Counted from the stretch's first letter, positions 33,204 through 54,737 are shown. The stretch: 58,755 bases of DNA from [Collinsella] massiliensis (GCA_000333815.1 CAPI01000055.1:1-58755); one strand, 5' to 3'. Notes: generated by a model from the sequence alone, not told the origin. Numbers and translations: made by a program.

Positions 33204-33500
33204 ATGGCAGAAGCTGAAGTCAATAAGGTCGAGGAAATCCAGGAACTGCTGCGCGGCATGGTGAACCGGCCGGTGAAGGTCAAGGCCAACATGGGCAGGA
33301 CGCGCGTCATCGAGCGCCTGGGCGTCATCAAGTCCGTGCACCCCGCCGTCTTCGTGGTCGAGGTCACGGAGCGCCGCGGCCGCACCTCGCGTCAGAGCTA
33401 CCAGTACGTCGATGTGCTCACGGGCACGGTCGAGCTCTTCGACACCGAGACGGGCGAGCACATCTTCACGCCCGCGTTCGACCAGCCCGATGAGGGCTAG
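33204..33500 (+). CDS. veg: Veg family protein
   Basis: Small protein of 98 residues resembling Veg, a highly expressed protein of Gram-positive bacteria that in Bacillus affects biofilm matrix expression. VEEIQELLRGMVNRPVKVKA, NMGRTRVIERLGVI, and VVEVTERRGRTSRQSYQYVDVLTGTVEL fit the family's beta-barrel core. The genetic context supports this: in Bacillus veg also lies close upstream of ispE. GCAGGAGGC precedes the ATG. The start of ispE lies inside the last codons of this gene. Confidence 0.85.
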   Translation: MAEAEVNKVEEIQELLRGMVNRPVKVKANMGRTRVIERLGVIKSVHPAVFVVEVTERRGRTSRQSYQYVDVLTGTVELFDTETGEHIFTPAFDQPDEG

Positions 33501-34395
33501 CGAGCCTGCGCGCCGCGTCGTCGTCTCGGCTCCGGCCAAGGTCAATCTCTATCTAGGCATCCATACCGAACGGGACGGGCGCGGCTACCATCGCGTCGAC
33601 TCCGTGATGGCCGCGCTCAGCCTCGCGGACACGGTCACGGTCGAGCCCGCCGGTACCCTCGAGGTCGTCACCGTGCCCGCGGCGGATTTCCCCATGGAGC
33701 AGAACACGGCGTACCGCGCCGCGGTCGCGCTCGCGCAGGCGTTCGGGCTCGAGCCCCGCGCACGCATCGCGATCGAGAAGCGCATTCCGCTCCGCGCTGG
33801 GCTCGGCGGTCCCTCGGCGGACGCTGCGGCGGCGATCATGGGCCTCTGCGCGCTGTGGGGGCTCGACGTGCACGATGAGCGCGTGGAGGCGGTCGCGCGC
33901 GCCATCGGGGCGGATGTCCCGTTCTTCCTGCATGGCGCCCTTGCGTACCTCGACGGTGCGGGGGATTGCCTGCGCGAGCGCTTCGAACCGCTCGCCGGCC
34001 TGCCCGTCGTGCTCGTGCGGCCGCAGGGCGAGGGCGTGAGCGCGGGCGCCGCATATGCGCGCTTCGACGAGGATCCCCAGCCGCTGCCGCCGCTCGAGCC
34101 CGTCCTCGAGGCGCTGCGCGCCCATGACGCCGACGCGGTCGCCGCGCGCGTGGCGAACAACCTCGCGCCCGCGTCGTGCGCGCTCGCGCCCGAGATCGAC
34201 GAGGTGCTCGCGTGGCTACGCGGTCGCCCCGGCGTGCGGGCAGCGCTCATGTCGGGCTCGGGGTCGTGCTCGTTCGCCCTCTGCGCGTCGCTCGATGACG
34301 CGCGCGCGATCGTCCAGGCGGCACAGGCCGAGCGCGGATGGTGGGCGTATGCTGCGACGATGGAGAAGTCGGGAGCGCGCGTGATTGAGCGCTAG
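33490..34395 (+). CDS. ispE: 4-diphosphocytidyl-2-C-methyl-D-erythritol kinase
   Basis: GHMP-family kinase of the MEP isoprenoid pathway, 301 residues. VSAPAKVNLYLGI is the N-terminal motif, PLRAGLGGPSADAAAAI the ATP-binding Gly loop, FFLHGALAYLDGAGD the third motif and MSGSGSCSFAL the C-terminal GHMP motif. Its ATG at 33490 overlaps the last 11 bases of veg, so the two are coupled; the longer frame upstream lies within veg. GACCAGCCCG offers only a weak ribosome-binding site, which agrees with coupling. Confidence 0.93.
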   Translation: MRASEPARRVVVSAPAKVNLYLGIHTERDGRGYHRVDSVMAALSLADTVTVEPAGTLEVVTVPAADFPMEQNTAYRAAVALAQAFGLEPRARIAIEKRIPLRAGLGGPSADAAAAIMGLCALWGLDVHDERVEAVARAIGADVPFFLHGALAYLDGAGDCLRERFEPLAGLPVVLVRPQGEGVSAGAAYARFDEDPQPLPPLEPVLEALRAHDADAVAARVANNLAPASCALAPEIDEVLAWLRGRPGVRAALMSGSGSCSFALCASLDDARAIVQAAQAERGWWAYAATMEKSGARVIER

Positions 34396-34433
34396 CATTG
34401 TCCGGCATGTTCTGCTACTATACCTACTTGCTT

Positions 34434-34510
34434 CGGGTTGTGGCTCAGTTTGGTAGAGCACCGCGTTCGGGACGCGGGGGTCGCTGGTTCAAATCCAGTC
34501 AACCCGACCA
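34434..34510 (+). tRNA. tRNA-Pro (anticodon CGG)
   Basis: 77 bases with an encoded CCA. Acceptor CGGGTTG pairs with CAACCCG; anticodon stem CCGCG/CGCGG encloses TTCGGGA with anticodon CGG; T-loop GGTTCAAATCC. TATACC around 34419-34424 is a probable -10. It marks the left edge of the accessory island. Confidence 0.95.
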
Positions 34511-34520: not shown

Positions 34521-34560
34521 GCAGGCCAGAGTGGTTATCCGCTCTGGCCTGCTTTGTTTT
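34521..34560 (+). terminator. terminator of tRNA-Pro
   Basis: Perfect 11-bp stem GCAGGCCAGAG / CTCTGGCCTGC with a 10-base loop, followed by TTTGTTTT. Confidence 0.9.
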
Positions 34561-34574
34561 AGGCTGCTTGAATG

Positions 34575-34643
34575 GGTTGGTTGGGGACGTGTTCCTTTCA
34601 ACCCATTTGGGGGGGGGTGAAAGGAGCACGTCCCCAACCAACC
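34575..34643. repeat. long REP-like inverted repeat
   Basis: Two 26-base arms (34575-34600 and 34618-34643) pair with a single mismatch around a 17-base, G-rich loop. The arms contain TTGGGGACGTG and CACGTCCCCAA, a core of the type found in REP-like palindromes. There is no T-run, so it is not a simple terminator. The remaining sequence from here to 34945 contains no gene I can support; a 34568-34900 open frame has no ribosome-binding site. Confidence 0.7.
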
Positions 34644-34945
34644 ATGCGATCCGTTTAGCTGTGCGACCCCACGCTGGGTGGCGTACCGTGTGCGCGCGAT
34701 GTATGCGCCCAGGCGGAAAGTATTTCACATCGCGGCGGAGAAGCCGCGCTATCTTGCAAGCTTGCTCGAGGAGTCGGGTTCGCGCGACTTGCGGCGACAG
34801 GGTGAGCGCCATCGCCTTCGCGTGCTTGCTGCGATGCGCCCCCGATGGTAGGCTCCGTGTTCCTCAAATATTTTGGAAATCAATTTACAAAAATGATTAG
34901 CCATAGTACAATACCCAAAATCACATTCCGCAAAAGGAGGAATCG

Positions 34946-35458
34946 ATGAGCGAGATGACCTTTACCTCAGCCAGCGCCTCAAAGTACATTCGGAGCTTAG
35001 AGCAGGAAAAAGCGCATCTCATCGCCCGTGAGCGTGAGAACGCCACCTACGTTTTGTCTCAAGGCGAAGAAGGGCTTCCTCCCGAGTACGATTATGAGCA
35101 GACGTTTACCCTAGTCGATGAAATTGACGGCAAGGTGCGTGCTGTTCGCCATGCCTTGCATGCCTTTAATGCCACGACGGTCATCCCCGAAGAAGGGATT
35201 ACGATCGACGAGGCGTTGGTGCTGATGGCTCAGCTCAATAACAAGCTTGCGCGCCTTGAGCGACTTCGCTCGCATGAGGCGAAGAAAAGGTGCCCTGCGA
35301 GCATGTTCAGGGGAAACGTCGTTGTCGAGTACGAATATGCGAACTACGACGTTGCGCGCGCAGCGCAGGATTACCGGGAACTGTACGAGCGTATCGCGGA
35401 GCTCCAGCTGCGCTTGGATCTGGTGAATCAGACCGAGCGATTCTCCGTGACCATCTAA
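34946..35458 (+). CDS. DIP1984-like (septicolysin-type) helical protein, tentative
   Basis: A 170-residue hydrophilic, mostly helical protein. The pattern ITIDEALVLMAQLNNKLARLERL followed by a central beta-rich part and a final helix YERIAELQLRLDLVNQTERFSVTI resembles the DIP1984/septicolysin-homologue family, whose function is not established. No signal peptide or membrane segment is seen. AAAAGGAGG precedes the ATG and the upstream region is AT-rich, so expression is likely. Base composition is noticeably less GC-rich than the housekeeping genes, fitting an accessory origin. Stands alone. Confidence 0.6.
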   Translation: MSEMTFTSASASKYIRSLEQEKAHLIARERENATYVLSQGEEGLPPEYDYEQTFTLVDEIDGKVRAVRHALHAFNATTVIPEEGITIDEALVLMAQLNNKLARLERLRSHEAKKRCPASMFRGNVVVEYEYANYDVARAAQDYRELYERIAELQLRLDLVNQTERFSVTI

Positions 35459-35699
35459 GCATTCGATACTCTCGTTCCGGGCGCAAAGTTCCTCTATTTG
35501 GTTATGAAAAGACCATCGGTTGCGGTTCACGCGTTTAAGTTGTTCCTAGTTTGTTGTTAGTAGTGCGTTACTGATAGTGTGTTGCAACAACACGTGGGAT
35601 CGCATTCCTGTCTGCTTTGCGCCGAAAACCTCCTGCGCCATCTTAGCTGATGCCCGCAGGTGGTCGCAGAGGTTCGGTTTCATGCGGCCGCTTTCGTCG
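35459..35699. other. intergenic stretch inside the accessory island
   Basis: 241 bases between convergent genes. It contains AT-rich sequence and no convincing terminator, RNA or open frame. Confidence 0.4.
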
Positions 35700-37202
35700 T
35701 TAGCCCATCAAATCAAATGCAAACAAGTTCTCACGTTCGGCGGTTAAGCTACGGGCGGTTTGCTCGAGTTCGAGCAAACGGTCGGCATGTTCGGTATAGG
35801 CTTTCGCTATAGCAGCCTGCACGGTCACATCGGGGATGGGAATCGATGCGTTGCGCAGGTCGCGCGGCGATATCTGACGGAGCGTCGATGTACCGCTTGC
35901 GGTTTGATTGAGGATCTGCTGGCCTTGGGAACTCGTAAGGAAAGCGAGCAGGAATACCGGGTCTACCCCTTCGGTCACCTCGATTGCAAAGAGGTTGTCT
36001 GCAAGAAGATAACCGTCGACACGCTGCGCGAATGAGTTTTGGTCGATGAGGCAGGCTTTGTAGGGATGCCCGGTCCGCGACAGAACGAGCCGTGGGCCCG
36101 AGAACGGTTTGATGTTCTGGGCGGTTATATCTGCGGAGTTGTAATAGCGAGCGCTGCAGGGAAATCCCCTGTCCGCGTCGAGAAGATAGTTCCGTCCATG
36201 CTGGAAATCCTTGGAGGTGATGTAGGCGATTGCAGGATGCGCGCAGGTACGACTCGGATAGAATGCGCGTTTCGAGTTCGTCGCCTGCAGAGGGGCAACT
36301 GAAGAGAGCTTGTTTTTTGGTATTCCGCGGACAACGGTGGAGAACTGGCTGAACGGCTTCGCGTTCTTTGGAGGACGCGGTGGCGTGAGGTATCTGTCTG
36401 GAATCAGCAGGTAGTCGTTAGCGATGACGTCTTCAGGACGCAGGGAGACGTTGTGTTCGGCGGACCGCTTTCCTTCCTCCGTGCGCTCGTCATTGCATGA
36501 TGGCGCTACGAACTGGATGGTCTCGGAATTCCGCTGTAGTAGGACGATGGCATCGTAGCTGATGTCTACGGATACGCCCTGTTCGTCGGCGTAGGACACA
36601 TCAAAAGGTGTGGGCAGCTTGATTATCGCCGAGATGTAGTGATGCTCGACGAACCTTCGCTGTCCGATGCGCCACGCCATGCGCGATAACTGTGCGTTTT
36701 CCATAAGGATCGCCGCCGCACCCTGCTCGCCAGCCAGGTACAGTGCGATGCCCGCAAGCGTCCAGGCGGTGTGACGAGGGATTTCGATGCCGAGGCTCGT
36801 GTATACCGCTTCGAGCGCGTCGGTCTCGTCTTGCGTGATCGAAACGCTTCGTGGTGGCGCGCAGACCGCTAGACGGGTGCCGTTTTGGCGTTGCGAGGGA
36901 AGGGGGATCACGCCGGTCGGGGCGGAAACATTGCGCAAATCGGCGGAATCGTGCAGGATGGTGCAATCGTGCAGGATCTCATCGAGTTCAAGCACCGTAC
37001 CGGTGGAGCACGACCCCTGAACCTCGTAGTCCCAATCTTTGGAGCCGAAGAACGCAGAGACCTGAGTCACGCCGGCGAAAAGCTCGACCACGCTCGCAGG
37101 TTCCCCCTGGATTAGTTGCATGCAAGTACCCAGGCCATCCGTAAGTCCATCCTGCGCTGCCGAACTGATAGCGATCAAATCATCCACGCAAACCCCTTTC
37201 AT
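35700..37202 (-). CDS. methylase-like/HsdS-like fusion protein, probably not catalytic
   Basis: A 500-residue protein with two recognisable parts. Residues about 20-240 resemble an N6-adenine methylase core in outline: ELFAG at the motif I position, a TAWTLAGIALYLAGEQGAAAIL strand, and RFVEHHYISAIIKLPTPF followed by YDAIVLLQRN as in HsdM. The SAM-binding DPxxGxG and the catalytic NPPF/NPPY motif are not visible. Residues about 255-500 resemble a type I specificity domain: LLADNLFAIEV, FLLAFLTSSQGQQIL, LRQISPRDLRNASIPIPDVTVQAAIAKAY, then a C-terminal coiled coil. DNA recognition without methylation is my inference. A GTG at 37187, with AAAGGGG upstream, is an alternative start. Divergent from the 683-residue gene 63 bases away. 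Confidence 0.65.
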   Translation of the reverse strand: MKGVCVDDLIAISSAAQDGLTDGLGTCMQLIQGEPASVVELFAGVTQVSAFFGSKDWDYEVQGSCSTGTVLELDEILHDCTILHDSADLRNVSAPTGVIPLPSQRQNGTRLAVCAPPRSVSITQDETDALEAVYTSLGIEIPRHTAWTLAGIALYLAGEQGAAAILMENAQLSRMAWRIGQRRFVEHHYISAIIKLPTPFDVSYADEQGVSVDISYDAIVLLQRNSETIQFVAPSCNDERTEEGKRSAEHNVSLRPEDVIANDYLLIPDRYLTPPRPPKNAKPFSQFSTVVRGIPKNKLSSVAPLQATNSKRAFYPSRTCAHPAIAYITSKDFQHGRNYLLDADRGFPCSARYYNSADITAQNIKPFSGPRLVLSRTGHPYKACLIDQNSFAQRVDGYLLADNLFAIEVTEGVDPVFLLAFLTSSQGQQILNQTASGTSTLRQISPRDLRNASIPIPDVTVQAAIAKAYTEHADRLLELEQTARSLTAERENLFAFDLMG

Positions 37203-37265
37203 GCTCTATCCATTGTACTGAAATGCTGGAAAGTAATTTCCACAAGAACGTGGGAGTGACGCGTT

Positions 37266-39317
37266 ATGCATGTGACAGATGAGTGCGCTCAGCAGTTTCT
37301 CGAGGTCTTCCAACAGTTTGTGCGGTATGCAAGCGGCCGGTCGATGGGTCATGCGGCGGTAAGTCCCTATCCGTTTGCCGAGGATCCCGGCGATGATCCC
37401 ACACACGATCTCGAGACCTGCTTTCAGAACATGCTGAGTAGGCCAAGTATCGTTGAGAGGTTTGTCGATATGAACCGGCACCGCCTCTCGGAGGATCAAG
37501 AGGCGATCGCGCTGGGATGGGAAGACCGCCTATGTGGAACGTGTATCATGCTGGGATTCGCAGACGACTACGTCGTGGTGGATCATGACGGCATGCTGTT
37601 CGCAGCCGATGACATCTCGGGCGAATTCATGGAGCGGGCCTCCCAGATGCCCTTTGCGGCAGAGGCCATGCTTCTCCCATATGCGGGAGAGATCGTGTTG
37701 CCGAAGCCGTTTCGCGTCATGGGATTTTCCAAGGCTGCTTACAGCAAAGCCGAGATAGCAAGTTTCCTTGAAGCGAAGCCACCACTCATTCGCGGAGCGG
37801 AGGCATTGCGCTCGGTGGCGCGCGTTCTGCATGAGCCGTTCAACAACTGGGAAGCAGGTGAGTCCGAAGCCGATTACTGCTGGAGGGAACCCGAGCCTCG
37901 AGCTTTCCGTCGCGGTGCGCTCTACGGCCTCGACGGCGTGGAGCGCGAGAAGCTGGTGAACAGGGAGGTGGGGCACTATGGGTACGAGTTGGGCAGCGAT
38001 TGGTGGCGTAGAAAAAGGCAGCGCCCCATCAAACAGGCCATTGAGCCAACGCTTTCCGCAGCGTTTTCGTGCTTAACTAAGAGCGAATTGCTGGATATTG
38101 CAAGAGCTGTGCAGCTGAAGAAATGCTCTGTCTTGAAGAAGGCAGACCTTGCGCAAAAGGCCTGCACGCACCTGTTGTCTAGTCGAGACGCGGAGGCCTT
38201 GAGCCCGTTTGTCGAAGACTGCCTCGATAGCGAATTGGATCTGCTGGGAGAGCTGCTTGAAGCGGGCGGTGTCATGGGCATCCCTGCAGATGATCACCCC
38301 TTTACCGCAACGCATGCCCCTCTGAGCTTCACATACCAAGACGGGGATAATCTGATTGCGTTTATACCACGGGAGTTTTGCAACGAACGACTTGAACGCT
38401 GCTTGAGTAGTGAGCGTGCGAAGCGCAGGCAAGAACGTCAGGCTCGGTCTGCTCTGGACGCTTGCGTATTTCAGTACGGCATCATTCCGCTCGCAGAGGC
38501 ATATGCGGAGTATGCAAGGCTTGCAGAAGATCCGGAGGACATCCAGAGGTTTCGCGCATTGGCGATGGAGCAGTCGGGTGCGGCCAGGCTGGTACATGAG
38601 GGTGAGACGGAGTACCTCATGCATGCCTCACTAACGGACGACAAAGTTCAGGCGGTCGTCGCACAGATTTGCAAATATGAATCGACGTGTCGATCTGCAT
38701 ACTTCTCTCGCATCGCGAAGGCGCGAGACGATGGGGCGATGCGACGCATGACGACGGGTTTGATGGAGTTTGACCGTCGCGAATACTGCGCGAGGCGCAG
38801 ACAAGAGATACGTACATGGATTGAGAGCAAAAACGCCGCCGATGTGAGCCGCCTTATCGAGGCACATGACCAGGCGCCGCGCAAACCGTTGAACGCCGCC
38901 TACCTAGAATACGGACCCGTGGAGGCGGTGCGTATGTCCCCTGAGGGGCGAGCGCTTCAGGCCGTGCTGGATGGACTGGTTCCCTATAGCGAAAATGAGT
39001 ATCGGTTCGCGGATAAGCTGCTCGAGGAGATTGCGACCTGCAGCGTGGAATGCGGTGAGTTGGATGGCGCATTCGATGCCTTGCGGCGCGAAGAGTACGA
39101 TTTCCAAGCCACCTATGCGCCTGTGCTTATTCGGTCGGCGATGAACCTTTACAACAGCCTGCCTTTGTGGGGAGAACGCGGATGGTCGGCCAGAGAACGC
39201 GCCGAGAGCATCGCGGGAAAGCCTATAGCGTTTGCCCCTGACGGTGTGCCGCTTTGCGCTGGTTCTTTTTACACGGCTGCGGAGGTTCAGCAATTCGGGG
39301 CTACTCCGCCTTCATAG
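37266..39317 (+). CDS. large protein of unknown function with a Rho_N/SAP-like motif
   Basis: A 683-residue hydrophilic protein I do not recognise. The only familiar element is LTKSELLDIARAVQLKKCS followed by VLKKADLAQKACTHLL (residues about 270-304), which fits the helix-turn-helix pattern of Rho N-terminal or SAP-type nucleic-acid-binding modules. The rest is alpha-helical and Glu/Arg-rich, with no signal peptide, membrane segment, Walker motif or nuclease motif I could find. GGGAG lies nine bases before the ATG. The gene diverges from the methylase-like/HsdS-like gene and shares its promoter region, and both are less GC-rich than their surroundings, suggesting joint acquisition and function. 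Confidence 0.6.
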   Translation: MHVTDECAQQFLEVFQQFVRYASGRSMGHAAVSPYPFAEDPGDDPTHDLETCFQNMLSRPSIVERFVDMNRHRLSEDQEAIALGWEDRLCGTCIMLGFADDYVVVDHDGMLFAADDISGEFMERASQMPFAAEAMLLPYAGEIVLPKPFRVMGFSKAAYSKAEIASFLEAKPPLIRGAEALRSVARVLHEPFNNWEAGESEADYCWREPEPRAFRRGALYGLDGVEREKLVNREVGHYGYELGSDWWRRKRQRPIKQAIEPTLSAAFSCLTKSELLDIARAVQLKKCSVLKKADLAQKACTHLLSSRDAEALSPFVEDCLDSELDLLGELLEAGGVMGIPADDHPFTATHAPLSFTYQDGDNLIAFIPREFCNERLERCLSSERAKRRQERQARSALDACVFQYGIIPLAEAYAEYARLAEDPEDIQRFRALAMEQSGAARLVHEGETEYLMHASLTDDKVQAVVAQICKYESTCRSAYFSRIAKARDDGAMRRMTTGLMEFDRREYCARRRQEIRTWIESKNAADVSRLIEAHDQAPRKPLNAAYLEYGPVEAVRMSPEGRALQAVLDGLVPYSENEYRFADKLLEEIATCSVECGELDGAFDALRREEYDFQATYAPVLIRSAMNLYNSLPLWGERGWSARERAESIAGKPIAFAPDGVPLCAGSFYTAAEVQQFGATPPS

Positions 39318-39689
39318 GGGGTTTCAGATTTTCAGTGGATGGTCGCGACTCAGTTGGTTCCCAAGCACCGACCAAAAGACTCGACCGGTTCCGCTACGCG
39401 ACCTCGCTCTTGTTGTCGCGGTGCCGGGATCTCCCATGTTGGCTCCAAAAGATAAGAAAAATGCGGCTGAAGGTACGGGTACCCGCAGCAGCTAAAAGCC
39501 CGAGGGCTTTTCACAATAACTGAAGTATACCCGAGTGAGACGAACGGGGGAGGCACTTGGGAAGTGCGGGCCATCCATCGAAAGGTCCCATAGCTCGCGC
39601 TTCACTTCGGTGCATGGGAGATAAACGTGCACCACGCGGGCGAACACGGTAAAAGAGCCGCATCTCTCCCGAAATCTGCCCACTCGCCC
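39318..39689. other. intergenic region with possible gene remnant
   Basis: No intact gene. A 19-codon frame at 39436-39495 (MLAPKDKKNAAEGTGTRSS) ends directly in front of a terminator; it continues open to 39232 without a ribosome-binding site and may be the 3' remnant of a lost gene. CGGGTACCCG at 39476-39485 is a small palindrome. The rest up to the LuxR gene shows nothing I can assign. Confidence 0.4.
39494..39511. terminator. terminator-like hairpin at the right edge of the island
   Basis: AAAAGCCC GA GGGCTTTT, a symmetrical 8-bp palindrome able to act in both directions, although it is short. Confidence 0.6.
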
Positions 39690-41129
39690 TTACCGCCCGA
39701 TGGTCTCCTCCACGAGGTCGATGAGCTCCTGCTGGCTGTGCACGTTGCACTTGTGGTAGATGTGGCGCGTGTGCGTCTTGACCGTGTTGCCGGAGATCGT
39801 GAGCCGCTCCATGATGGACTTCCCGCTATGGCCGCGCGCGAGCAGCTCGAAGATCTCGCGTTCGCGCGCCGTGAGGCCGCGCTCCTGTGCGAAGAGCGCG
39901 AGCGCCGCGGCGGCACGCACCCCCGCATCGGCGCCCGGCAGCGCCTCGCGCTCCTCGGTGGGCACAGCGGGCACGATCTCGCTGAAGAACGCGCGGAAGC
40001 TGAAGCCCGCCAGGCCGATCCACACGAACGCGAAGAGCACGAGCACGAGCACGGCGCTCGTGATGAGGATCGCATCGACGTGGCCCCCGTCCTGCGCGGC
40101 GAGCGCGCCCTGGGCGATCGCGAAGCCCACTGACGAGGAGCAGCTCGACACTGCGAAGCCGAGCGGGATGCTCGCGAGCGACCACGCGGGATTGCGCGCG
40201 GCGATGCTCGCGAAGGTGGAGAGCATGAGCGCGTAGAAGCACTGCGACCCGATCTCGATGATCGTCGAGGTGAAGCCCTGGGAAATCGCGGTCGCCGGCA
40301 TGAGCAGAAAGCCCGCGACCACCACGAGCGCGCTCACGTGGAAGGCGGCGTCCTCGTCGAAGGTGATGCGCTTGGCGCGGCTCCATACGAGCATGAGCGC
40401 GCCGAACACGACGGCGATGAGCGCGTACTGCCAGTTCTCGATGGCGCCGAATCGCACCGAGGTCGAGAAGCCGAAGGTGGTCTCGAACAGGGCGATGCAC
40501 GCGAAGAGCTTGCTCGAGATGGGCACGAACGAGAACGGGTTCGTGGGGGCGAGGTCGCTCGTCGCCGCGGCGTCGCGCATGCGGGCGAACAGGTCGCGCT
40601 GGCAGGCCGAGCCGGAGGCGATGAGCGTGCAGAGCATGATGCTCGCGAGCATGAGCGGCGAGGCCTCGGCGGCCGAGCGCATGAGCGGCCACACGGCGTA
40701 CCCGATGGCGATCCCGCTCAGCGCGGCGAACATGGTGCGGTCGCCGCGCGGGATGCGCGAGAGCGTGAGCACCGCGAGGATGGTCCCCCAGGCGCGCCCG
40801 ATGTTGAACAGGGTGTCCGCCACGAGGAACAAGGTGGTGTCCGCTGGGTTGGCGGCCACGCTCGTCCACAGGATCGCGCCCACCGCGGCGCAGGCGGCGG
40901 CGATGCCCGAGAAGCCGGCGAGCGACAGCGCACTCGGCTGCCGGCGCGCCAGAATCGCCACGGGCACGTAGATGAGGCCTGAGATGAAGATGCTCACGTT
41001 CATGGCGACGCCGTCCACGACGGGGAGCATCACGCTGTTGTGCATGAGCATGACGAGCTCGACGAGCGCGATCTGGAACACGGCGGCCGACCAAGGGAGC
41101 GAGGGGAGATGTCCCTGCGTATCCGCCAT
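39690..41129 (-). CDS. LuxR-family regulator with polytopic membrane N-terminus
   Basis: A 479-residue membrane-anchored regulator. Residues about 10-400 contain roughly 10-12 hydrophobic segments resembling an MFS-like or sensor membrane domain; the C-terminus (about 410-475) is a LuxR/NarL HTH: LTAREREIFELLARGHSGKSIMERLTISGNTVKTHTRHIYHKC. There is no receiver or ATPase domain, so signal sensing probably occurs in the membrane part. The architecture is abundant in Coriobacteriia. The ATG at 41129 has AGGGGGTTAC upstream; a GTG at 41144 is possible. It is divergent from the amidohydrolase/transporter genes, which are its likely targets. Confidence 0.87.
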   Translation of the reverse strand: MADTQGHLPSLPWSAAVFQIALVELVMLMHNSVMLPVVDGVAMNVSIFISGLIYVPVAILARRQPSALSLAGFSGIAAACAAVGAILWTSVAANPADTTLFLVADTLFNIGRAWGTILAVLTLSRIPRGDRTMFAALSGIAIGYAVWPLMRSAAEASPLMLASIMLCTLIASGSACQRDLFARMRDAAATSDLAPTNPFSFVPISSKLFACIALFETTFGFSTSVRFGAIENWQYALIAVVFGALMLVWSRAKRITFDEDAAFHVSALVVVAGFLLMPATAISQGFTSTIIEIGSQCFYALMLSTFASIAARNPAWSLASIPLGFAVSSCSSSVGFAIAQGALAAQDGGHVDAILITSAVLVLVLFAFVWIGLAGFSFRAFFSEIVPAVPTEEREALPGADAGVRAAAALALFAQERGLTAREREIFELLARGHSGKSIMERLTISGNTVKTHTRHIYHKCNVHSQQELIDLVEETIGR

Positions 41130-41137
41130 GTAACCCC

Positions 41138-41160
41138 CTATCACCCCATTGGGGTGATAG
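41138..41160. promoter_or_regulatory. perfect inverted repeat in the LuxR/amidohydrolase divergent region
   Basis: CTATCACCCC / GGGGTGATAG around ATT: 10-bp perfect symmetry, 9 bases upstream of the LuxR start codon and overlapping its ribosome-binding site. It could be an operator for autoregulation or an mRNA hairpin limiting translation. Confidence 0.5.
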
Positions 41161-41331
41161 CCGTTTACCGTCTAAATCATACCGCTTGCCCTCGCGAGCG
41201 GCGGGTGAAATCGCCGACCGATGCGCCCCGCCCGGACATCCGCGCCCCCACGGCGCCGCGTCCTGGCGTAGTATCTCTCATGGCAAAACCCGTCCCGGCA
41301 AGCGGGCGGTTCCATGGTAAGGAGCACCGAT

Positions 41332-42528
41332 ATGGCTACGGTAACCGAGGAAGCGAAGGCGCTGCAAGAGCAGATCGTGACGGATCGCCGCTGGCTGCAC
41401 CAGCATCCCGAGCTCGGCTTCGATCTACAGGAGACGTGTGCGTACGTGCGCGGCCGTCTGGAGGAGATGGGCTACGAGGTCTCCGAGCCCTGCGAGGGAG
41501 CGCTGCTCACCCAGGTGGGCGACCCCGCCGCCGGCCCGGTCTTCATGCTGCGCGCCGACATGGACGCCCTGCCCGTGGACGAGGCGACCGGCCTGCCCTT
41601 CGCCTCGACGAACGGCAACATGCACGCCTGCGGCCACGACACCCACACCGCCATGCTGCTCGGCGCGGCGCAGATCCTGAAGGACCACGAGGCGGAGCTC
41701 AAGGGCTGCGTGAAGCTGCTCTTCCAGCCCGACGAGGAGGGCTGCGCGCCCGTGGAGTACTGCGGCGGCGACGCCGTGCTCGAGGCGGGCGTGCTCGAGA
41801 ACCCGCATGTGGACGCCCTCGCCGCCCTCCATGTGCAGGCGCTCGACTTCGAGGCGGGCGGCATCTTCACGCGTCCCGGCACCATCTTCTCGTCCATCGA
41901 CGACATCGACGTGCGCATCACCGGGTGCGGCGCCCACGGCTCCACGCCGCAGCAGGGCATCGACCCCATCAACATCGCCTGCCACGTGTACCAGGGCTTC
42001 CAGAACATCATCGCGCGCGAGGTCGATCCCACGCAGACCTGCGTGGCCACCTTCGGCAGGATCGAGAGCGGCCGCGCCGCGAACGTGATCCCCGACAGCG
42101 CCTCGATGCTCGGTACCCTGCGCACGCAGGACGCCCAGGTGCGCGCGGGCTTCAAGGAGCACGCGCAGCGCATGGTCGCGGGCATCGCCCAGGCGTTCGG
42201 CGGCACCGCCGAGGTGAGCTTCCTGCGCGGCGTGCCCAACACCTACAACGACCCCGCGCTCACCGAGGAGCTCACGGGCTATGCGGCCGAGATCTTCGGC
42301 GAGCCCGTCCGGGAGCTCGAGGCGCCGTTCTCGGGCACCGACGACCTCGCGATCCTCTCGCAGGAGGTGCCCACCACCTACTTCATCCTGGGCACGGGCA
42401 CGCTGCCCGGCCACGAGGGCTGCGGCATGCACCATCCCAACGTCGACTTCGACGAGTCGGTGTTCTGGAAGGGCGCTGCGCTCCTCGCGGGCTGCGCGCT
42501 CACCTATCTGGACCGTCACGCGGAGTGA
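41332..42528 (+). CDS. M20 family amidohydrolase/carboxypeptidase (hippurate-hydrolase or aminobenzoyl-glutamate type)
   Basis: Zinc-dependent amidohydrolase of 398 residues that should cleave an N-acyl or peptide bond in the cytoplasm. RRWLHQHPELGFDLQETCAY is the family start; metal ligands are in MHACGHDTH (His98, Cys100, His102) and in FQPDEEG; the dimerisation domain carries GCGAHGSTPQQGIDPI, and FSGTDDLAILSQ and MHHPNVDFDE close the fold. The ATG at 41332 has AAGGAG upstream, better than the in-frame ATG at 41314. Its proximity to a YfcC-type carrier suggests import and hydrolysis of a small peptide or acylated amino acid. Confidence 0.92.
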   Translation: MATVTEEAKALQEQIVTDRRWLHQHPELGFDLQETCAYVRGRLEEMGYEVSEPCEGALLTQVGDPAAGPVFMLRADMDALPVDEATGLPFASTNGNMHACGHDTHTAMLLGAAQILKDHEAELKGCVKLLFQPDEEGCAPVEYCGGDAVLEAGVLENPHVDALAALHVQALDFEAGGIFTRPGTIFSSIDDIDVRITGCGAHGSTPQQGIDPINIACHVYQGFQNIIAREVDPTQTCVATFGRIESGRAANVIPDSASMLGTLRTQDAQVRAGFKEHAQRMVAGIAQAFGGTAEVSFLRGVPNTYNDPALTEELTGYAAEIFGEPVRELEAPFSGTDDLAILSQEVPTTYFILGTGTLPGHEGCGMHHPNVDFDESVFWKGAALLAGCALTYLDRHAE

Positions 42529-46464: not shown

Positions 46465-48465
46465 ATGGCAGAGCAGCAGGAGCAGGGACGCCCGGCCGAC
46501 GCGCCGGAGGCGGCCTCGACGCTGAACGACGAGCGCGCGCACCGCTTGGCCAAGCGCGCCGCGATGCTCGAGGCGGGTGCCGACCCGTATCCCGAGCATT
46601 CCGAGGTCACGGACCATGTGGCCGATATCGAGGCGGCCTACGCCGGCCTCGCCGCCGGTGAGGACACCGAGGACGTGGTGAGCATCGGCGGCCGCGTCAT
46701 GGCCAAGCGCGGCCAGGGCAAGATCGCGTTCGTGGTCGTGCGCGACCCCTCCGGCGAGATCCAGCTCTTCTGCCGCGTGAACGACATGCGCCCGGAGGAC
46801 TGGGAGCTTCTCGGCGAGCTCGACCTCGGCGACATCGTGGGTGTGACCGGTGTGGTGGTGCGCACGAAGCGCGGCCAGCTCTCCATCGCGCCGAAGCGCC
46901 TCACGCTGCTCTCCAAGGCCGTGCGCCCGCTGCCCGAGAAGTTCCACGGCCTCTCCGACAAGGAGACCCGCTACCGCCAGCGCTACGTGGACCTCATCAT
47001 GAACGACGACGTGCGCGAAACCTTCCGCAAGCGCTCGGCCATCATCTCGGCGTTCCGCCGCTACATGGAGGACAACGCCTACATGGAGGTGGAGACGCCC
47101 ATCCTGCAGACCATCCAGGGCGGCGCCACCGCAAAGCCGTTCATCACGCACTTCAACGCCCTCAACCAGGAGTGCTACCTGCGCATCGCCACCGAGCTGC
47201 ACCTGAAGCGCCTGCTCGTGGGCGGCTACGAGCGCGTGTTCGAGATCGGCCGCATCTTCCGCAACGAGGGCATGGACCAGACGCACAACCCCGAGTTCAC
47301 CACCATGGAGGCCTACCGCGCCTACAGCGACCTCGACGGCATGAAGGAGCTCGCCGAGGGCGTCATCAAGGCCGCGAACAAGGCCATCGGCAACCCCGAG
47401 GTCATCGAGTACCAGGGCCAGACCATCGACCTGTCGGGCACGTGGCCGAGCCGTCCCATGACCGAGATCGTCTCCGAGGTCATGGGCCGGGAGCTCACGC
47501 TCGACACGCCCATCGAGGAGCTGCGCGCGGCGGCCGCCGAGTGCGGCATCGAGGTCAAGCCCGAGTGGGGCGCCGGCAAGCTCATCGCCGAGATCTACGA
47601 CGAGCGCGGCGAGGATTCCATCGTGAACCCCACCTTCGTGTGCGACTACCCCGTGGAGGTCTCGCCGCTCGCCAAGCGCTTCGAGGACGACCCGCGCCTC
47701 ACGCACCGCTTCGAGCTCGTCATCGCCGGGCATGAGTACGCCAACGCCTTCTCCGAGCTCAACGACCCCGTCGACCAGGCCGAGCGCTTCGCCCGCCAGA
47801 TGGAGGAGAAGGCCGGCGGCGACGACGAGGCCATGGAGTACGACGAGGACTACGTGCGCGCGCTCGAGTACGGCATGCCGCCGGCGGGTGGCATCGGCAT
47901 CGGCATCGACCGCGTGGTCATGCTGCTCACCGATTCCGCGAGCATCCGCGACGTGCTGCTCTTCCCGCACATGCGCCCCGAGAAGGGGAGCGCGAACGGC
48001 GCGGCCGCCGCGAAGGCCGCCGAGGCCGCGGCCGCTTCCGGCGCGAGCCCGTTCGTCGAGCCGAAGAAGCCCACGATCGACTACGGCAAGGTGAAGGTCG
48101 AGCCGCTCTTCGAGGACTTCGTCGACTTCGACACGTTCAGCCGCTCCGATTTCCGCGCGGTGAAGGTCAAGGCGTGCGAGGCCGTGAAGAAGAGCAAGAA
48201 GCTGCTCGCGTTCACGCTCGACGACGGCACGGGCACCGACCGCGTGATCCTCTCCGGCATCCACGATTACTACGAGCCGGAGGAGCTCGTGGGCAAGACG
48301 CTCATCGCCATCACGAACCTGCCGCCGCGCAAGATGATGGGCATCGATTCCTGCGGCATGATCATCAGCGCCGTGCATGCCGAGGGCGAGGGCGACGATG
48401 CCGAGGAGCGCCTGAACGTGCTCATCGTGGACGACAGCATCCCCGCCGGCGCGAAGCTGTACTAG
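46465..48465 (+). CDS. lysS: lysyl-tRNA synthetase (class II) fused to a C-terminal tRNA-binding domain
   Basis: Charges tRNA-Lys. 666 residues, well above the roughly 500 of usual LysS. An N-terminal OB anticodon-binding domain (about 65-170) is followed by the class II core with motif 2 [20 protein letters not shown] and motif 3 [14 protein letters not shown]. After an Ala-rich linker (about 512-530) comes an extra EMAPII/Trbp111-type tRNA-binding OB domain (about 538-666), recognisable by [31 protein letters not shown], and [19 protein letters not shown]. The frame is continuous. AAGGAGAG precedes two adjacent ATGs (46462, 46465); spacing favours the second. Followed by a strong terminator. 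Confidence 0.95.
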
Positions 48466-48536
48466 CTAAGGAAGCTTGCTGGGCTTCGGCCTGCACCACG
48501 TTGCAGGGGCGTGACCGAACAGATACGGAATGCAAG

Positions 48537-48567
48537 GGCGACCACCCGTTTGGGTGGTCGCCTTTTT
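48537..48567 (+). terminator. terminator of lysS
   Basis: Perfect 11-bp stem GGCGACCACCC / GGGTGGTCGCC with a 4-base loop and TTTTT. Confidence 0.95.
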
Positions 48568-48631
48568 GCTATCGATGCGGTAGAAACGCGCTAGCTCACG
48601 TCTCCTGTCAGATTAAAACAAACAAAATAAT

Positions 48632-48644
48632 CTGTGAAACACAG
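48632..48644. promoter_or_regulatory. candidate DeoR-family operator, site 1
   Basis: CTGTGAAACACAG, a 5-bp inverted repeat around AAA, just upstream of the aldo/keto reductase promoter. The core TGAAACACAG recurs three times before the aldolase/PTS operon. Confidence 0.6.
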
Positions 48645-48653
48645 AAATATGTA

Positions 48654-48681
48654 TTGAATCAAAAATCAAATCATCTATAGT
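48654..48681 (+). promoter_or_regulatory. promoter of the carbohydrate island's first gene
   Basis: TTGAAT, 16-base spacer, TATAGT, 49 bases before the ATG at 48731, in an AT-rich region that contrasts with the surrounding chromosome. Confidence 0.7.
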
Positions 48682-48730
48682 GAAGACGGTGGTCCGACGG
48701 TGGCATCTACGCGGAAGGACTGATGCATCC

Positions 48731-49711
48731 ATGAATATGGTGAAACTCGGCGATACGGGCATCGAAATATCGAAAATCGGCCTAGGAACATGGGCTATCG
48801 GCGGAGGTCCGGCTTGGAACGGTGATCTCGATACTCAGGTGTGCATCGATACGATTCACAAAGCGGGCGAGGTGGGCATCAACCTCATCGATACCGCTCC
48901 CGGCTATAACTTCGGCAACAGCGAAGTTATTGTTGGCAAAGCGCTCAAGGGCATGAATCGCAAGGACGTTATTCTTGAGACCAAGTGCGGTATCGTGTGG
49001 GAGCGCACAGGAAGCCTGTTTAACAAGGTGGGTGACCGTCAGCTATATAAGAATCTCACCCCTGAATCGGTTCGGGAGGAGATTGAGGCGAGCCTCGAGC
49101 GCTTGGGAACTGACTACATCGACATCTACATGACCCACTGGCAGTCGGTCGAGCCGTGCTTCACGCCTATCGAGGAGACTATGGAGGTCTTGCTTGATCT
49201 AAAGCGCCAGGGGAAGATTCGCGCAATCGGCGCTGCGAACGTCACGACCGATCACATCAAAGAGTATTTACGCTGCGGAGAGCTCGATATCATTCAAGCT
49301 AAGTATAGCCTGCTTGATCGTGCCGTCGAGGACGAGCTTTTCGATCTTTGTCGCGAGAACAACATCGTTATCCAGGCGTATTCTCCGCTTGAGCAGGGTC
49401 TCCTCACCGGAACCATCGAGAAGGGCTATGTGCCCACTGGTGCGCGCGCGAACAAGAAGTGGTGGCAGCCCGGGAACCTCGAGCGCGTTATCGACATGCT
49501 CGATAGCTGGAAGCCTCTGTGCGAGAAGTACTCGTGCGGCATCCCCACGCTTGCGCTCGCTTGGGTGCTCGCGCAGGGTGACTTCATCTCCATTCTGAGC
49601 GGGTCGACAACGCCTGAGCAGGTCGAGGAAAACATTCGTGCGGTTCAAATCGGGCTTACGAAAGACGATGCCGATTGGATGCGCGAGCAGGCCGAGCTGC
49701 TCGACGCGTAA
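48731..49711 (+). CDS. aldo/keto reductase
   Basis: NAD(P)H-dependent oxidoreductase of 326 residues with the AKR TIM-barrel fold. The catalytic tetrad is visible: Asp in INLIDTAPGY (with Tyr), Lys in ILETKCG and His in IYMTHWQS. IGAANVTTDHIKEY and the cofactor-site GSTTPEQVEENI are conserved. It begins the carbohydrate island and has its own promoter and operator. A likely role is reducing an aldehyde or keto-sugar formed in the pathway. GGAAGG lies upstream of the ATG at 48731; the open frame back to 48680 overlaps the promoter, so it is excluded. Codon use is less GC-biased than neighbours at the left. Confidence 0.9.
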   Translation: MNMVKLGDTGIEISKIGLGTWAIGGGPAWNGDLDTQVCIDTIHKAGEVGINLIDTAPGYNFGNSEVIVGKALKGMNRKDVILETKCGIVWERTGSLFNKVGDRQLYKNLTPESVREEIEASLERLGTDYIDIYMTHWQSVEPCFTPIEETMEVLLDLKRQGKIRAIGAANVTTDHIKEYLRCGELDIIQAKYSLLDRAVEDELFDLCRENNIVIQAYSPLEQGLLTGTIEKGYVPTGARANKKWWQPGNLERVIDMLDSWKPLCEKYSCGIPTLALAWVLAQGDFISILSGSTTPEQVEENIRAVQIGLTKDDADWMREQAELLDA

Positions 49712-49724
49712 GACGGCTGGTTTA

Positions 49725-49752
49725 GGGGGGCGTACCGCGTGTCACGCCCCCC
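49725..49752 (+). terminator. intercistronic hairpin after the aldo/keto reductase
   Basis: Perfect 9-bp stem GGGGGGCGT / ACGCCCCCC with a 10-base loop and a delayed T-run 10 bases later. It may reduce transcription into the MFS gene. Confidence 0.6.
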
Positions 49753-49794
49753 GATACGTGCATTTTTGGGTGCGAAGAAAAGGGGAGCGACGTG

Positions 49795-51252
49795 ATGACG
49801 ACAGCAAGGCTCGGCGACATGGATGAGGCATACGAACAAAAACGGATGCCCGAGACGGAGGAGCCGAACAGCGATGCCCGGATTGATCGCTTGCCGGAGA
49901 CGTTCTGGCGTTGGAAGATCTTTCTCATGTCCGGCCTTGCCGTCCTGTTCGCATGGAGCAACTATGTGAGCGGTCTCGTGCTCGCCCAGCTAACAGCTAT
50001 CGGCTGGGTTGATGCGACCAGCAGCGCCTTGTTCACCTCAGTGTATATGGCGGGAATGTTTTTCGGGTCGCTTCTGGGTGGCGTCATCGGTGATGCTATA
50101 GGTCGACGAAAGGGCTATTTACTCTTTGTCGGCCTCCACACCCTCTGCATGTATCTCGCTGCTGTTGCGCCGAATATCGAATTGCTTACGGTGATTCGTG
50201 CGGTAATGGGATTTGGATTGGGCGCGCTGCTTGTGACGATCTTCGCTGGGTTTTCTGAATATGTTCCCGCGGCGACGCGTGGGACCTGGATGGGGAGAAA
50301 TTCGTTTCTGGGCAACTGTAGCAATCCCATTTCGTCACTTCTGGCAACGCTTGTTACGCCACTCGTAACCGCAGATGCGAACTGGCGCCTCATGTTCGCG
50401 ATCCCCGCCGTGCTCTCTACATTGGTATGGCTATGGGCTTGGCGGCAGTATCCCGAATCGCCACGATGGCTTGAAAGCCGGGGGCGCTTCGCCCAGGCTG
50501 CGCGCGTATTGAACTCCATTGAGGATGAGGTCGAGCGAGAAAGCGGCGCCCCGCTGCCACCTGTTCACGCACACGCCGGTGCGTGCGGGGATTGTGCCTC
50601 GTCCGCGCATGAGGAGATTCCGTATAAGAGCCTTTTCCACGGCGACTTGCTGCGACGTGTCGTGCTCGGAGCGTTCGTGCTCGTGGCCATGAACGTGACT
50701 GCGTACACTCTGATGACGTGGCTCCCGACGATCCTCTTGCTCAAAGGCATCGATCTCAACAGCTCGTTCGCGCTTTATACCGTCATGGCGATAGGTGCGC
50801 CTGCGGGTGCCTTTTTAGGCATGCTGCTTATGGATCACCTGTCAAGAAAGGTGATGGGCATCGGGTTGTTGCTCATCATGGCTGTTCTCGGACCGGTGTT
50901 CGCGCTGCAGCAAAACCATCTTGCCATCTGCGTGTTGGGGTTTTTGCTCCAGGTTGTGGTAGAGATGTACGTGGTTTTCTCATCTGGTGTATATGTGCCC
51001 GAGATTTGGCCGACGGAGGTTCGGATGCGTGGATCCGGCCTTGCGAATTCGATAGGGCGTTTGAGTGGCATCGTTACGCCATTTTGCGTGGCCGCTCTTC
51101 TGAGCGCTTCGGGTGTGGTTCCGGTGTTTCTCATGATGTCCTGCGTGGCGCTGTCCACGGCGGCGGTCATCGCTCGGCTCGGGTTCGATACGCGTGGCAT
51201 GACGGCGGAGGAGATCGGCAATGTAGCCGTTGGTGGTCATGCCCGGGCATAA
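49795..51252 (+). CDS. MFS transporter, sugar-porter-like
   Basis: Major facilitator carrier of about 485 residues with 12 predicted membrane segments. The loop 2-3 motif GGVIGDAIGRRKGYLLF and the loop 8-9 DHLSRKVMG match the sugar porter/MHS type. YPESPRWLESRGRFAQAARVL after segment 6 is typical of the sugar-porter branch. The middle loop has a small His/Cys-rich stretch (HAHAGACGDC). AGGGGAG precedes GTG/ATG (49792/49795). It lies between the reductase and the regulator, so it probably imports or exports the pathway's sugar, polyol or by-product; the operon also has a PTS, so two transport modes coexist. Confidence 0.88.
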   Translation: MTTARLGDMDEAYEQKRMPETEEPNSDARIDRLPETFWRWKIFLMSGLAVLFAWSNYVSGLVLAQLTAIGWVDATSSALFTSVYMAGMFFGSLLGGVIGDAIGRRKGYLLFVGLHTLCMYLAAVAPNIELLTVIRAVMGFGLGALLVTIFAGFSEYVPAATRGTWMGRNSFLGNCSNPISSLLATLVTPLVTADANWRLMFAIPAVLSTLVWLWAWRQYPESPRWLESRGRFAQAARVLNSIEDEVERESGAPLPPVHAHAGACGDCASSAHEEIPYKSLFHGDLLRRVVLGAFVLVAMNVTAYTLMTWLPTILLLKGIDLNSSFALYTVMAIGAPAGAFLGMLLMDHLSRKVMGIGLLLIMAVLGPVFALQQNHLAICVLGFLLQVVVEMYVVFSSGVYVPEIWPTEVRMRGSGLANSIGRLSGIVTPFCVAALLSASGVVPVFLMMSCVALSTAAVIARLGFDTRGMTAEEIGNVAVGGHARA

Positions 51253-51339
51253 GTGCAGATATGGATATAATGACGCTAGAGGGAGGGGTTCCATGCAAGC
51301 TCCGCCCGTCCCGCTAGCTAGGTGTAAATGAGGTGCAAT

Positions 51340-52098
51340 ATGGTCGCCCAAAGTCGGCGTCAGTTCATCCAAGATGAGCTGTCTCAGACAGGCAAGGTCG
51401 TTGTCTCTGATTTGAGTGAACGGCTCGGTGTTACCGAAGAGACTATCAGGCGGGATTTGGAGCGCCTCGAAGCGGATGGCGTACTCAAACGGACATACGG
51501 TGGAGCCATTCCGAATCCGGAGCGCCGCTTGGTGACCGATGTCCAGTACTACAAGCGTGCCGCTCAGCGCGTCGATGAAAAGCGCAAGATTGCTCGGAAT
51601 ATGCTCCCCTTACTCGAGCATGCGCACACGGTCGCGGCAGACTCGAGCAGCACCACAGGAGAAGCTATCAAGCTTATCAAGGACCGTTCCGATTTGACGT
51701 TGCTGACCAATTCGACAGCTGCCCTGCAAGAGCTTGTCGATGGCAAGTTGTCTGTTATGGTTCCGGGCGGTGAGTTTCATCGCGGTACGCTCTCTCTACG
51801 CGGTGAAGCAACGAAATCGGCTATCAGACGGTATCGCGTGGATGCGCTTATCTTTAGCTGCATGGGCATCGACGAGAATGCCGTATTTGACAGCAGGCCG
51901 GAGGAGACAGAGGTCAAGCGCACGTTCATTGACCAGGCGGAAACGGTGATTCTCCTCGCGGATCATACGAAATTCGGCCGGGCGGCGTTTGTGCGTGTGG
52001 CATCGCTCGACAAGATAGACTATTTGGTAACCGATGAAGAGCCGAGCGAGGCATGGAAAGCGATTTGTGAGGAGCACCAGATAACGCTCGTGTATTAG
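51340..52098 (+). CDS. DeoR-family transcriptional regulator of the carbohydrate island
   Basis: Sugar-phosphate-responsive repressor, 252 residues. The N-terminal winged HTH is VVVSDLSERLGVTEETIRRD followed by LERLEADGVLKRTYGGAI (about residues 20-60), the DeoR signature. The C-terminal DeoRC sensor domain begins VAADSSSTTGEAIKLI and includes FSCMGID and ILLADHTKFGR. It lies between the reductase/MFS genes and the aldolase/PTS genes and probably controls both through the TGAAACACAG sites. The ATG at 51340 has GAGGTG upstream; 51328 is an in-frame alternative. Confidence 0.9.
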   Translation: MVAQSRRQFIQDELSQTGKVVVSDLSERLGVTEETIRRDLERLEADGVLKRTYGGAIPNPERRLVTDVQYYKRAAQRVDEKRKIARNMLPLLEHAHTVAADSSSTTGEAIKLIKDRSDLTLLTNSTAALQELVDGKLSVMVPGGEFHRGTLSLRGEATKSAIRRYRVDALIFSCMGIDENAVFDSRPEETEVKRTFIDQAETVILLADHTKFGRAAFVRVASLDKIDYLVTDEEPSEAWKAICEEHQITLVY

Positions 52099-52216
52099 AA
52101 GCGATGACCATCTGTGTGATACCGAAGGTAATTCGGTTGAGGCTGTAAGTGAAGCGCATACGGACGGGGTTCGACGGGCTGTCGGACTCCGCTCGCATTT
52201 CATATTAGCTATAAAT

Positions 52217-52231
52217 GTTTGAAACACAGAC
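52217..52231. promoter_or_regulatory. candidate DeoR-family operator, site 2
   Basis: GTTTGAAACACAGAC; shares TTGAAACACAG with site 4. Located in the 307-bp gap before the aldolase gene, about 100 bases upstream of the proposed -10. Confidence 0.55.
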
Positions 52232-52300
52232 TGGTAAGACCGTTTAGCGCTAAAAATATGCCATTCACAGATATATTTCTTTGAAATCCAACAATTTGCG

Positions 52301-52313
52301 TCTGAAACACAGA
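52301..52313. promoter_or_regulatory. candidate DeoR-family operator, site 3
   Basis: TCTGAAACACAGA, with arms TCTG/CAGA. It lies immediately upstream of TATACT (52322-52327), the probable -10 of the aldolase/PTS operon, so a bound repressor would cover the -35 region. Confidence 0.6.
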
Positions 52314-52321
52314 ATTAGCCC

Positions 52322-52327
52322 TATACT
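52322..52327 (+). promoter_or_regulatory. probable -10 element of the aldolase/PTS operon
   Basis: TATACT flanked by operator sites 3 and 4. The -35 is not clear, which would fit a regulated promoter. Confidence 0.5.
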
Positions 52328-52342
52328 CGTCACTGCAAGGCG

Positions 52343-52354
52343 TTTGAAACACAG
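52343..52354. promoter_or_regulatory. candidate DeoR-family operator, site 4
   Basis: TTTGAAACACAG, located just downstream of the -10, in a position to block transcription. Confidence 0.6.
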
Positions 52355-52405
52355 GACCACCACCAAACGCCTGCGATTGGCAGCAGAACGAGGTAAGGAG
52401 AGCTC

Positions 52406-53047
52406 ATGCTGTATCAGGAGACCAGGGAAGAGGTTCTGAAGTTCGCGGTGAAGTGTCTCGAGCACGGTCTGATTCACGGCACCGCCGGTAATGTTTCCAT
52501 GCGCGTTCCCGGTGAGGAGGCGGTTGTCATCACGCCGAGCGGCATTCCGTATGACACGCTGAAGCCCGAGGATCTCCCTGTCGTCTCGCTGTGGGGCGAG
52601 GTCATCGATGGCGATTTGAAGCCGTCTTCTGAAACCCCCATGCACACTGCTATTTTCCGTGCTCGCGCGAATGTGAACGGTGTGGTGCATACGCATTCCA
52701 TGTATGCAACGGTTATGTCCATCATGCAGAAGGAGATTCCAGCGATGGTGCCGCCTTCGAGCGCGTTTGCGCCCGTGCCGTGCGCGCCCTTCCAGCTTCC
52801 CGGCTCGAAGGAGCTCGCCGAAACCGTCGTTGCGACGCTTGGCGAGGATCATCTTGCTTGCACCATGCAGAATCATGGTCAGATCACCTGCGCTCCCACG
52901 CTTGCAATGGCTTACAAGGGTGCCGAAACCGTTGAGGAGTGCGCGCAGATTGCCTACCTCGCATATCAGGCGGGTTCCATGCAGGGTCTCCCCGAGGACG
53001 CGCGCGTAGAGCTGCGTCGTCGCGCCTTGAAGGGCCAAGCCGTATAA
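52406..53047 (+). CDS. class II aldolase/adducin family protein (L-fuculose-phosphate aldolase-like)
   Basis: Zinc-dependent aldolase or epimerase of 213 residues, the size of FucA, AraD and UlaF. It acts on a ketose 1-phosphate or pentulose 5-phosphate. GTAGNVSMRV and ITPSGIPYDTL are substrate-phosphate motifs; zinc ligands are in HTHSMYATVM plus a later His in MQNHGQI; Glu in PSSETPMHTAIF is the expected acid/base. AAGGAGAG precedes the ATG. First gene of the operon aldolase-IIB-IIC-aldolase-IIA. Aldolase versus 4-epimerase cannot be settled by eye. Confidence 0.88.
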   Translation: MLYQETREEVLKFAVKCLEHGLIHGTAGNVSMRVPGEEAVVITPSGIPYDTLKPEDLPVVSLWGEVIDGDLKPSSETPMHTAIFRARANVNGVVHTHSMYATVMSIMQKEIPAMVPPSSAFAPVPCAPFQLPGSKELAETVVATLGEDHLACTMQNHGQITCAPTLAMAYKGAETVEECAQIAYLAYQAGSMQGLPEDARVELRRRALKGQAV

Positions 53048-53101
53048 AGAGTAGGTAGTTTTCGGTCGTTGAGTTCGCACTTGTAGAAAGGACGTGCACT
53101 C

Positions 53102-53410: not shown

Positions 53411-53462
53411 CGAGTGCACGTAGCTATACCCGAAGGGGTTACGCCTGAAAAGGGGGTTGTAC

Positions 53463-54728: not shown

Positions 54729-54737
54729 GAGATTTGA

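Follow-up and report, generated by a model that had tools for sequence, protein, structure and literature searches.

The window analyzed here, a 58,755-bp stretch of the genome of [Collinsella] massiliensis (GCA_000333815.1, CAPI01000055.1:1-58755), contains, just downstream of a tRNA-Pro gene, a small island that consists of a minus-strand gene, here denoted P1, and two plus-strand genes, D and P2. Our analysis, in which all evidence on P1, P2, D and the operators is computational, suggests that P1, a type I-like fusion of methylase and specificity parts, is catalytically dead and functions as an autorepressor of this island at a tRNA-Pro hotspot; we assign this reading a probability of roughly 0.7. 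The domain make-up of P1, the loss of its motifs, the conserved palindromes over the promoters and the co-occurrence of the palindrome with P1 are computed directly. Two further proteins, E and F, are encoded at the P1 loci of relatives. The features of the window that are relevant for this interpretation are as follows:

34434..34510, plus strand: tRNA-Pro(CGG), identified by ARAGORN, the 5' border of the variable site
34560..39700: accessory island of ~5.1 kb, from tRNA-Pro to a LuxR-type regulator gene, delineated by low G+C content and blastn
34874..34889, plus strand: candidate operator O1 of gene D, TGGAAATCAATTTACA, overlapping the -35 element of the D promoter
34946..35458, plus strand: gene D, 170 residues, DIP1984/DUF6847-like helical protein, convergent with P1
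35700..37202, minus strand: P1, 500 residues, predicted dead HsdM-like domain, HsdS-type target recognition domain (TRD) and long helix
37227..37242: candidate operator in the P1-P2 intergenic region, TGGAAAGTAATTTCCA, found with a matrix derived from other genomes
37266..39317, plus strand: P2, 683 residues, member of a divergent Coriobacteriaceae family

A preliminary description of this DNA had noted in P1 an HsdM-like outline without catalytic motifs, joined to a type I specificity-like domain with a coiled coil, and this is borne out by alignment and by the predicted fold. The Pfam matches of P1 are below threshold (N6_Mtase, residues 145-198; Methylase_S, residues 396-482), and type I specificity models match the protein better than these two Pfam models do. 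The predicted structure (predicted local distance difference test score, pLDDT, 63 overall; mostly good for residues 109-500 and poor for residues 1-108) comprises an HsdM-like part (~18-275), a single HsdS-type TRD (275-458) and a C-terminal long helix (459-499). The first of these parts matches HsdM crystal structures (3khk_B, Z score 13.1; 3lkd_B, 12.5), and residues 275-499 correspond to half of an HsdS, that is, a TRD plus a helix (8vsr, Z score 17.3; 7vru_C, 15.2; 1yf2, 13.6); a second TRD, as in the type I HsdS chain, was not found in the model. The M-like domain, one TRD and helix are the domains of the fused methylase-specificity (M~S) gamma-methylases of the type 1 1/2-like kind. In the alignment with intact relatives, P1 has CAPP, and its orthologs CIPP or CVPP, in the column of NPPF/NYPW, and S-adenosylmethionine (SAM) motif I is not recognizable in P1. 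A helix-turn-helix (HTH) domain was not found in P1 either, as a Pfam search at E <=1 yields N6_Mtase and Methylase_S only, and the score of P1 with the MADS (MAD5) equivalog model is 31.7 bits, compared to a cut-off of 400. Alignment and modeling thus show P1 to be a fusion of methylase and specificity parts that has a single TRD and no recognizable catalytic site; it is probably a sequence-specific DNA-binding protein of type I methylase origin that does not modify DNA.

A search of 67 genomes of the same family identified full-length P1 orthologs in four genomes besides that of the window; these relatives include Collinsella sp. An2, two uncultured Collinsella and Candidatus Coprousia avicola. 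The orthologs are 33-38% identical to P1, aligned over most of the protein. We considered the possibility that the TRDs are far more conserved than the methylase half and rejected it because the difference is slight (38-40% versus 34-39% identity).

The principal evidence for regulation comes from a 16-bp palindrome with the core GGAA-N6-TTCC (consensus YGGAAWTNNAWTTCCR), which is located upstream of both genes, P1 and D, in each of the five genomes with P1. In the predicted P1 promoter of the relatives, the -10 hexamer TAYAAT lies inside the palindrome, 17 bp from the -35 element TTGNYC; in their D promoter, one palindrome covers the -35 region and a second copy is located exactly 38 bp downstream. 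The nine sites of the relatives, and no others, were used to construct a scoring matrix, with which the 58,740 positions of the window were scored. The top score, 16.8 bits, belongs to 37227-37242, between P1 and P2, and the second, 14.3 bits, to 34874-34889 in the D promoter, the third-best position reaching 9.3; among 5000 local shuffles, none attained the score of the former site and 36 that of the latter. The distance from the P1 start to the candidate operator upstream of it is 25 bp, and the predicted D promoter is at 34884-34912 (TTTACA-N17-TACAAT).

The motif is rare. Of the 16 occurrences of GGAAN6TTCC in the genome, only the site at 37227-37242 is in the window, and the stricter pattern GGAAWN4WTTCC occurs twice in the entire 2.33 Mb. 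In two P1-bearing relatives, G050 and G065, three of 9 and three of 29 genomic sites, respectively, fall in these P1 and D promoters (binomial 1e-9 and 5e-8). When one mismatch is allowed, the palindrome is still absent within 300 bp of all 13 D-family loci that lack P1 (12 bacterial and one viral) and therefore follows P1 rather than D. A GGAAN6TTCC site in G051 that is identical to a D site was discarded as a chance occurrence because it falls within a coding sequence and neither D, E nor P1 is close to it. In a search of 398 genomes, pairs of GGAAN6TTCC sites were detected in 8, versus 9 with the reversed control, and the only P1-bearing genomes among the matches were G050 and G065; taken alone, the pairs thus revealed no further loci. 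Given that the paired pattern is at background, the evidence for the operators rests on position, conservation and co-occurrence rather than on genome-wide enrichment of pairs.

More distantly related fused methylase-TRD genes, the majority with intact motifs, are located in type I restriction loci and carry palindromes of other types. In all six loci of one TRD type, three copies of TGGTTA-N4-TAACCA are present at the promoter or start of the fused gene:

L017, 3237-3315: triple array, fused gene start
L071, 6733-6811: triple array, fused gene start
L072, 6818-6902: triple array, fused gene start
L073, 6478-6562: triple array, fused gene start
L074, 9014-9098: triple array, fused gene start
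L127, 8252-8336: triple array, fused gene start

These fused genes head type I restriction loci in several families of Coriobacteriia, and in L017, L071, L072, L073 and L074 the sequence occurs nowhere else in the analyzed locus DNA; the fused gene of L072 reads APP in place of NPP. We know of no previous report of such triple arrays at the starts of fused genes. A search of 398 Coriobacteriia genomes for two TGGTTA-N4-TAACCA sites close together, in which protein sequence was not used, matched 5 genomes, compared to none with the reversed control. In four of the five the fused gene is present, three of these being known beforehand; the newly found one, in G316, is intact (E-value 3e-189), lies directly downstream of the array and belongs to a type I locus. 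The remaining match, in G400, is a 31-bp tandem repeat without a fused gene and was rejected. Upstream of L070, a dead fusion whose TRD differs from the preceding ones, there is a single strong palindrome, TTTTAGAA-N6-TTCTAAAA (L070:6326-6347), in the region shared with a divergent gene for a membrane protein. Hence, among the fusions compared, a different type of TRD goes with a different type of operator, as expected if the fusion proteins bind their own sites.

These comparisons bear on the possibility, which we consider unlikely, that GGAAN6TTCC is bound by another host regulator and P1 is merely among its targets. The present evidence does not directly identify the binding protein, and a palindrome of this size would suit many HTH repressors. 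However, the sites are missing at D-family loci that lack P1, are rare genome-wide, travel with P1 among genera, and are replaced by sites of another type where related fusions have another TRD. The interpretation of P1 as an autorepressor that binds these sites itself accounts for this pattern more readily, and several points weigh against it. The five P1-bearing genomes represent only about four lineages, two of the loci (L022 and L023) being near-identical. The D site in the window has a mismatch in one arm, and its second D site, at 34915, is weak (score 6.9) and not at the 38-bp spacing. An unlinked regulator that is confined to the P1-bearing genomes could own the motif. Finally, a variant SAM pocket in P1 is formally conceivable, because most of the first ~108 residues have pLDDT <50.

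The gene neighborhoods of P1 point to D, not P2, as its constant partner. D is convergent with P1, at a distance of 230-250 bp, in each of the five genomes that carry P1, and D of the window is 60-63% identical to the P1-linked D homologs of the four other genomes, whereas P2 is divergent from P1 in the window only; we accordingly regard D and P1 as the conserved pair. In P2's stead, the relatives carry E, a protein of 436-472 residues whose gene diverges from P1 in two genomes and from D in the remaining two. Their loci also include F, of 174-193 residues; neither E nor F has a match in Pfam. The possibility that P2 and E are distant homologs was rejected (hhalign probability 0.1%). Elsewhere, genes of the P2 family are scattered, with 20-29% identity, and none of them has P1 adjoining. 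No relatives of P1 or P2 were found in viral contigs. An Abi_2 abortive-infection family gene adjoins the D-P1-E locus of Collinsella sp. An2 (L024:4450-5463).

This distribution argues against a defense pair with P1 directed at invading DNA and P2 as the effector. The two genes are divergent and share a common 63-bp region, the island occupies a variable tRNA site, and the Abi_2 gene is near P1 in one relative; all this would suit such a pair. Nevertheless, P1 is beside P2 in no other genome, no P2 relative is beside P1, and P2 matches no nuclease or defense model, so that we find this scenario very improbable. The preliminary description had read the two genes as a DNA-binding partner and an effector and had made co-occurrence in relatives, fixed beforehand, the point on which that reading turned. 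With the pair adjacent in the window only, the notion of a conserved two-gene system fails; what stands is a DNA-binding and probably non-modifying P1 in an accessory island. Of the functions then suggested, defense may still apply, and a defense role for P2 is plausible; mobile-element control is without direct evidence.

Neither HsdR nor N6 methylase family matches were detected on the contig of the window, in accord with the earlier remark that no hsdR or intact methylase is nearby. An intact type I locus is present on another contig of the same genome, and the TRD and coiled coil of P1 are of the HsdS type, which would be compatible with P1 being an orphan specificity or decoy subunit that binds HsdM or HsdR encoded in trans, thereby retargeting or weakening a type I system. 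The relatives speak against this: HsdR was not found in any of the four P1-bearing relatives, and G065, which is 99% complete, also lacks any HsdM family match, so that P1 cannot be a trans-acting specificity subunit there. In addition, the M-like half of P1 makes HsdM unnecessary, and the operators would be left unexplained. We therefore give a decoy function little credence.

Under the autorepressor interpretation, P1 would have descended from fused M~S proteins of type I restriction loci, the methylase half having lost its SAM-binding and catalytic motifs and being retained as a structural part. Truncated HsdS proteins with a single TRD form homodimers that read symmetric split sites, namely GAA-N7-TTC in the case of EcoR124I delta-50 and GAAY-N5-RTTC in the case of EcoDXXI delta-N (PMC3874165; PMC3320862). 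By analogy, P1 is the likely binder of GGAA-N6-TTCC, because this palindrome has the same symmetric split form: two P1 copies would pair head to tail through the single TRD and the C-terminal helix, and the homodimer would contact the site directly. Neither the S nor the M subunit alone binds DNA (PMC3874165), and a similar need for the M part in DNA binding would explain why the dead M half has been kept. Binding of P1 at its own promoter and at those of D and P2 (E in the relatives) would result in repression, rather than activation, and the island would thus be an accessory cassette under its own control, with the regulator and D always present and a third gene that varies.

The inducing signal might perhaps be titration of P1 by phage DNA-mimic proteins. 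In an elaboration of this idea, P1 would be a guard that anti-restriction proteins of the Ocr or ArdA type pull off its operators, switching on D and P2 or E. The fold of P1 matches the M and S parts bound to Ocr or ArdA in 7eew, 2y7c, 7bst and 7bto, and repression would make such induction possible; the scheme is nonetheless purely inferential, with no known toxicity or defense activity for D, E or P2, and we deem it quite unlikely.

With regard to D, its predicted fold (pLDDT 82) matches PDB entry 3kdq from Corynebacterium diphtheriae (3kdq_C; Foldseek E-value 4e-4, template modeling score 0.61-0.67), and its score with the DIP1984 NCBIfam model is 17.6 bits, below the 70-bit cut-off. No relatives of D were found in plasmids. 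Distant DIP1984-like homologs (~33% identity) are present in three viral contigs near DNA methylase genes (L103-L105, 5007-5507), and two 5-6-kb gut 'Bacteriophage sp.' records contain further homologs with ~36% identity (L106:3011-3517 and L107:2624-3118). In other families, D homologs adjoin E or fragments of E without P1 (L060:4262-7722, L063:6429-7839, L064:6736-8316), and a gene for a DUF1016/YhcG-type nuclease lies beside the D homolog in L063 and probably in L064. The association of D with E may be older.

P2, already described as unrecognized, has no match in Pfam, NCBIfam, PADLOC or PHROG and no credible PDB match. A C-terminal SEC-C motif is present in the P2 homologs of L026 and L027 and absent from P2 itself. 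As for the Rho_N/SAP-like motif earlier ascribed to P2, all that is left of it is the hint of a Rho_N-like helical stretch provided by a weak match in a P2 homolog.

The P1 and P2 reading frames, the 63-bp gap between them, the low G+C content and the location after tRNA-Pro are all as given in the preliminary description, which had missed gene D and the operator sites. The G+C content is 0.54-0.58 across 35-39 kb, as opposed to 0.63-0.72 on the near flanks. In the same-genus genome G061 (L099), ispE and tRNA-Pro are followed, without an insert, by the end of the LuxR-type gene within ~45 bp, and blastn shows that window segments 33212-34510 and 39705-41483 adjoin each other there; another genome of the genus, G060 (L100), has a different insert of ~2 kb at this site, with an AAA_14 ATPase. 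By these genome comparisons, D, P1 and P2 constitute a ~5.1-kb accessory insert at a variable tRNA site. No convincing attachment (att)-type direct repeats flanking the island were detected. At its left edge, just past the tRNA-Pro terminator, there is a 30-nt inverted repeat (93%; 34575-34643), and a second stretch of low G+C content (0.54-0.58) spans 48000-57000 of the window.

Taken more broadly, there is perhaps an even chance that fused type I-like methylase-TRD proteins are an unrecognized class of regulators with the symmetric recognition of half-HsdS, in which intact members head type I loci and control them from triple TGGTTA-N4-TAACCA operators, and dead ones such as P1 serve solely to repress unrelated accessory islands, with phage anti-restriction proteins as possible inducers. 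If so, the dead branch represented by P1 would be a case of restriction-enzyme parts reused as a transcription factor and, because TRDs change specificity readily, a route to new operator specificities. There is surprisingly little information on the regulation of type I restriction loci, according to a 2025 review (PMC12707154); repression by a fused methylase-TRD protein through its own recognition domains, if true, makes this question experimentally tractable.

In the literature that we searched, the coverage of which is incomplete, we found no account of a regulator that is a type I-like methylase-TRD fusion. The closest known proteins in architecture are the type 1 1/2 and fused M~S gamma-methylases (M.AhdI, M.XmnI, M.DrdI and the engineered EcoR124I-NT), which, like P1, have a methylase half, a single TRD and a coiled coil; they recognize a symmetric split site, as P1 is predicted to do (PMC3874165, PMC3320862). 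Unlike these, P1 has neither SAM and catalytic motifs nor an endonuclease partner, and its likely sites are promoters. Esub1 (PDB 8vsq/8vsr), a stand-alone single-TRD S-like protein on which our literature search, incomplete in coverage, found no paper, is the best structural match of the second half of P1 (Z score 17.3) and differs from P1 in lacking a methylase-like half. DIP1984 (3kdq) and D share the same predicted helical fold, with the sequence score noted above. With respect to regulation, the methylases Ecl18kI, SsoII and EcoRII repress their own genes from an operator over the promoter (PMC3874152, PMC12707154), and P1 likewise has a palindrome at its own promoter; however, these methylases are active and carry an HTH domain in addition, whereas P1, without an HTH match, would use the TRD itself. 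The proposed role of P1 also resembles that of the C proteins and RptR, which are small self-regulating repressors of restriction or defense islands (PMC12707154, PMC12255303) and differ in fold from P1, a protein of 500 residues built of type I enzyme parts.

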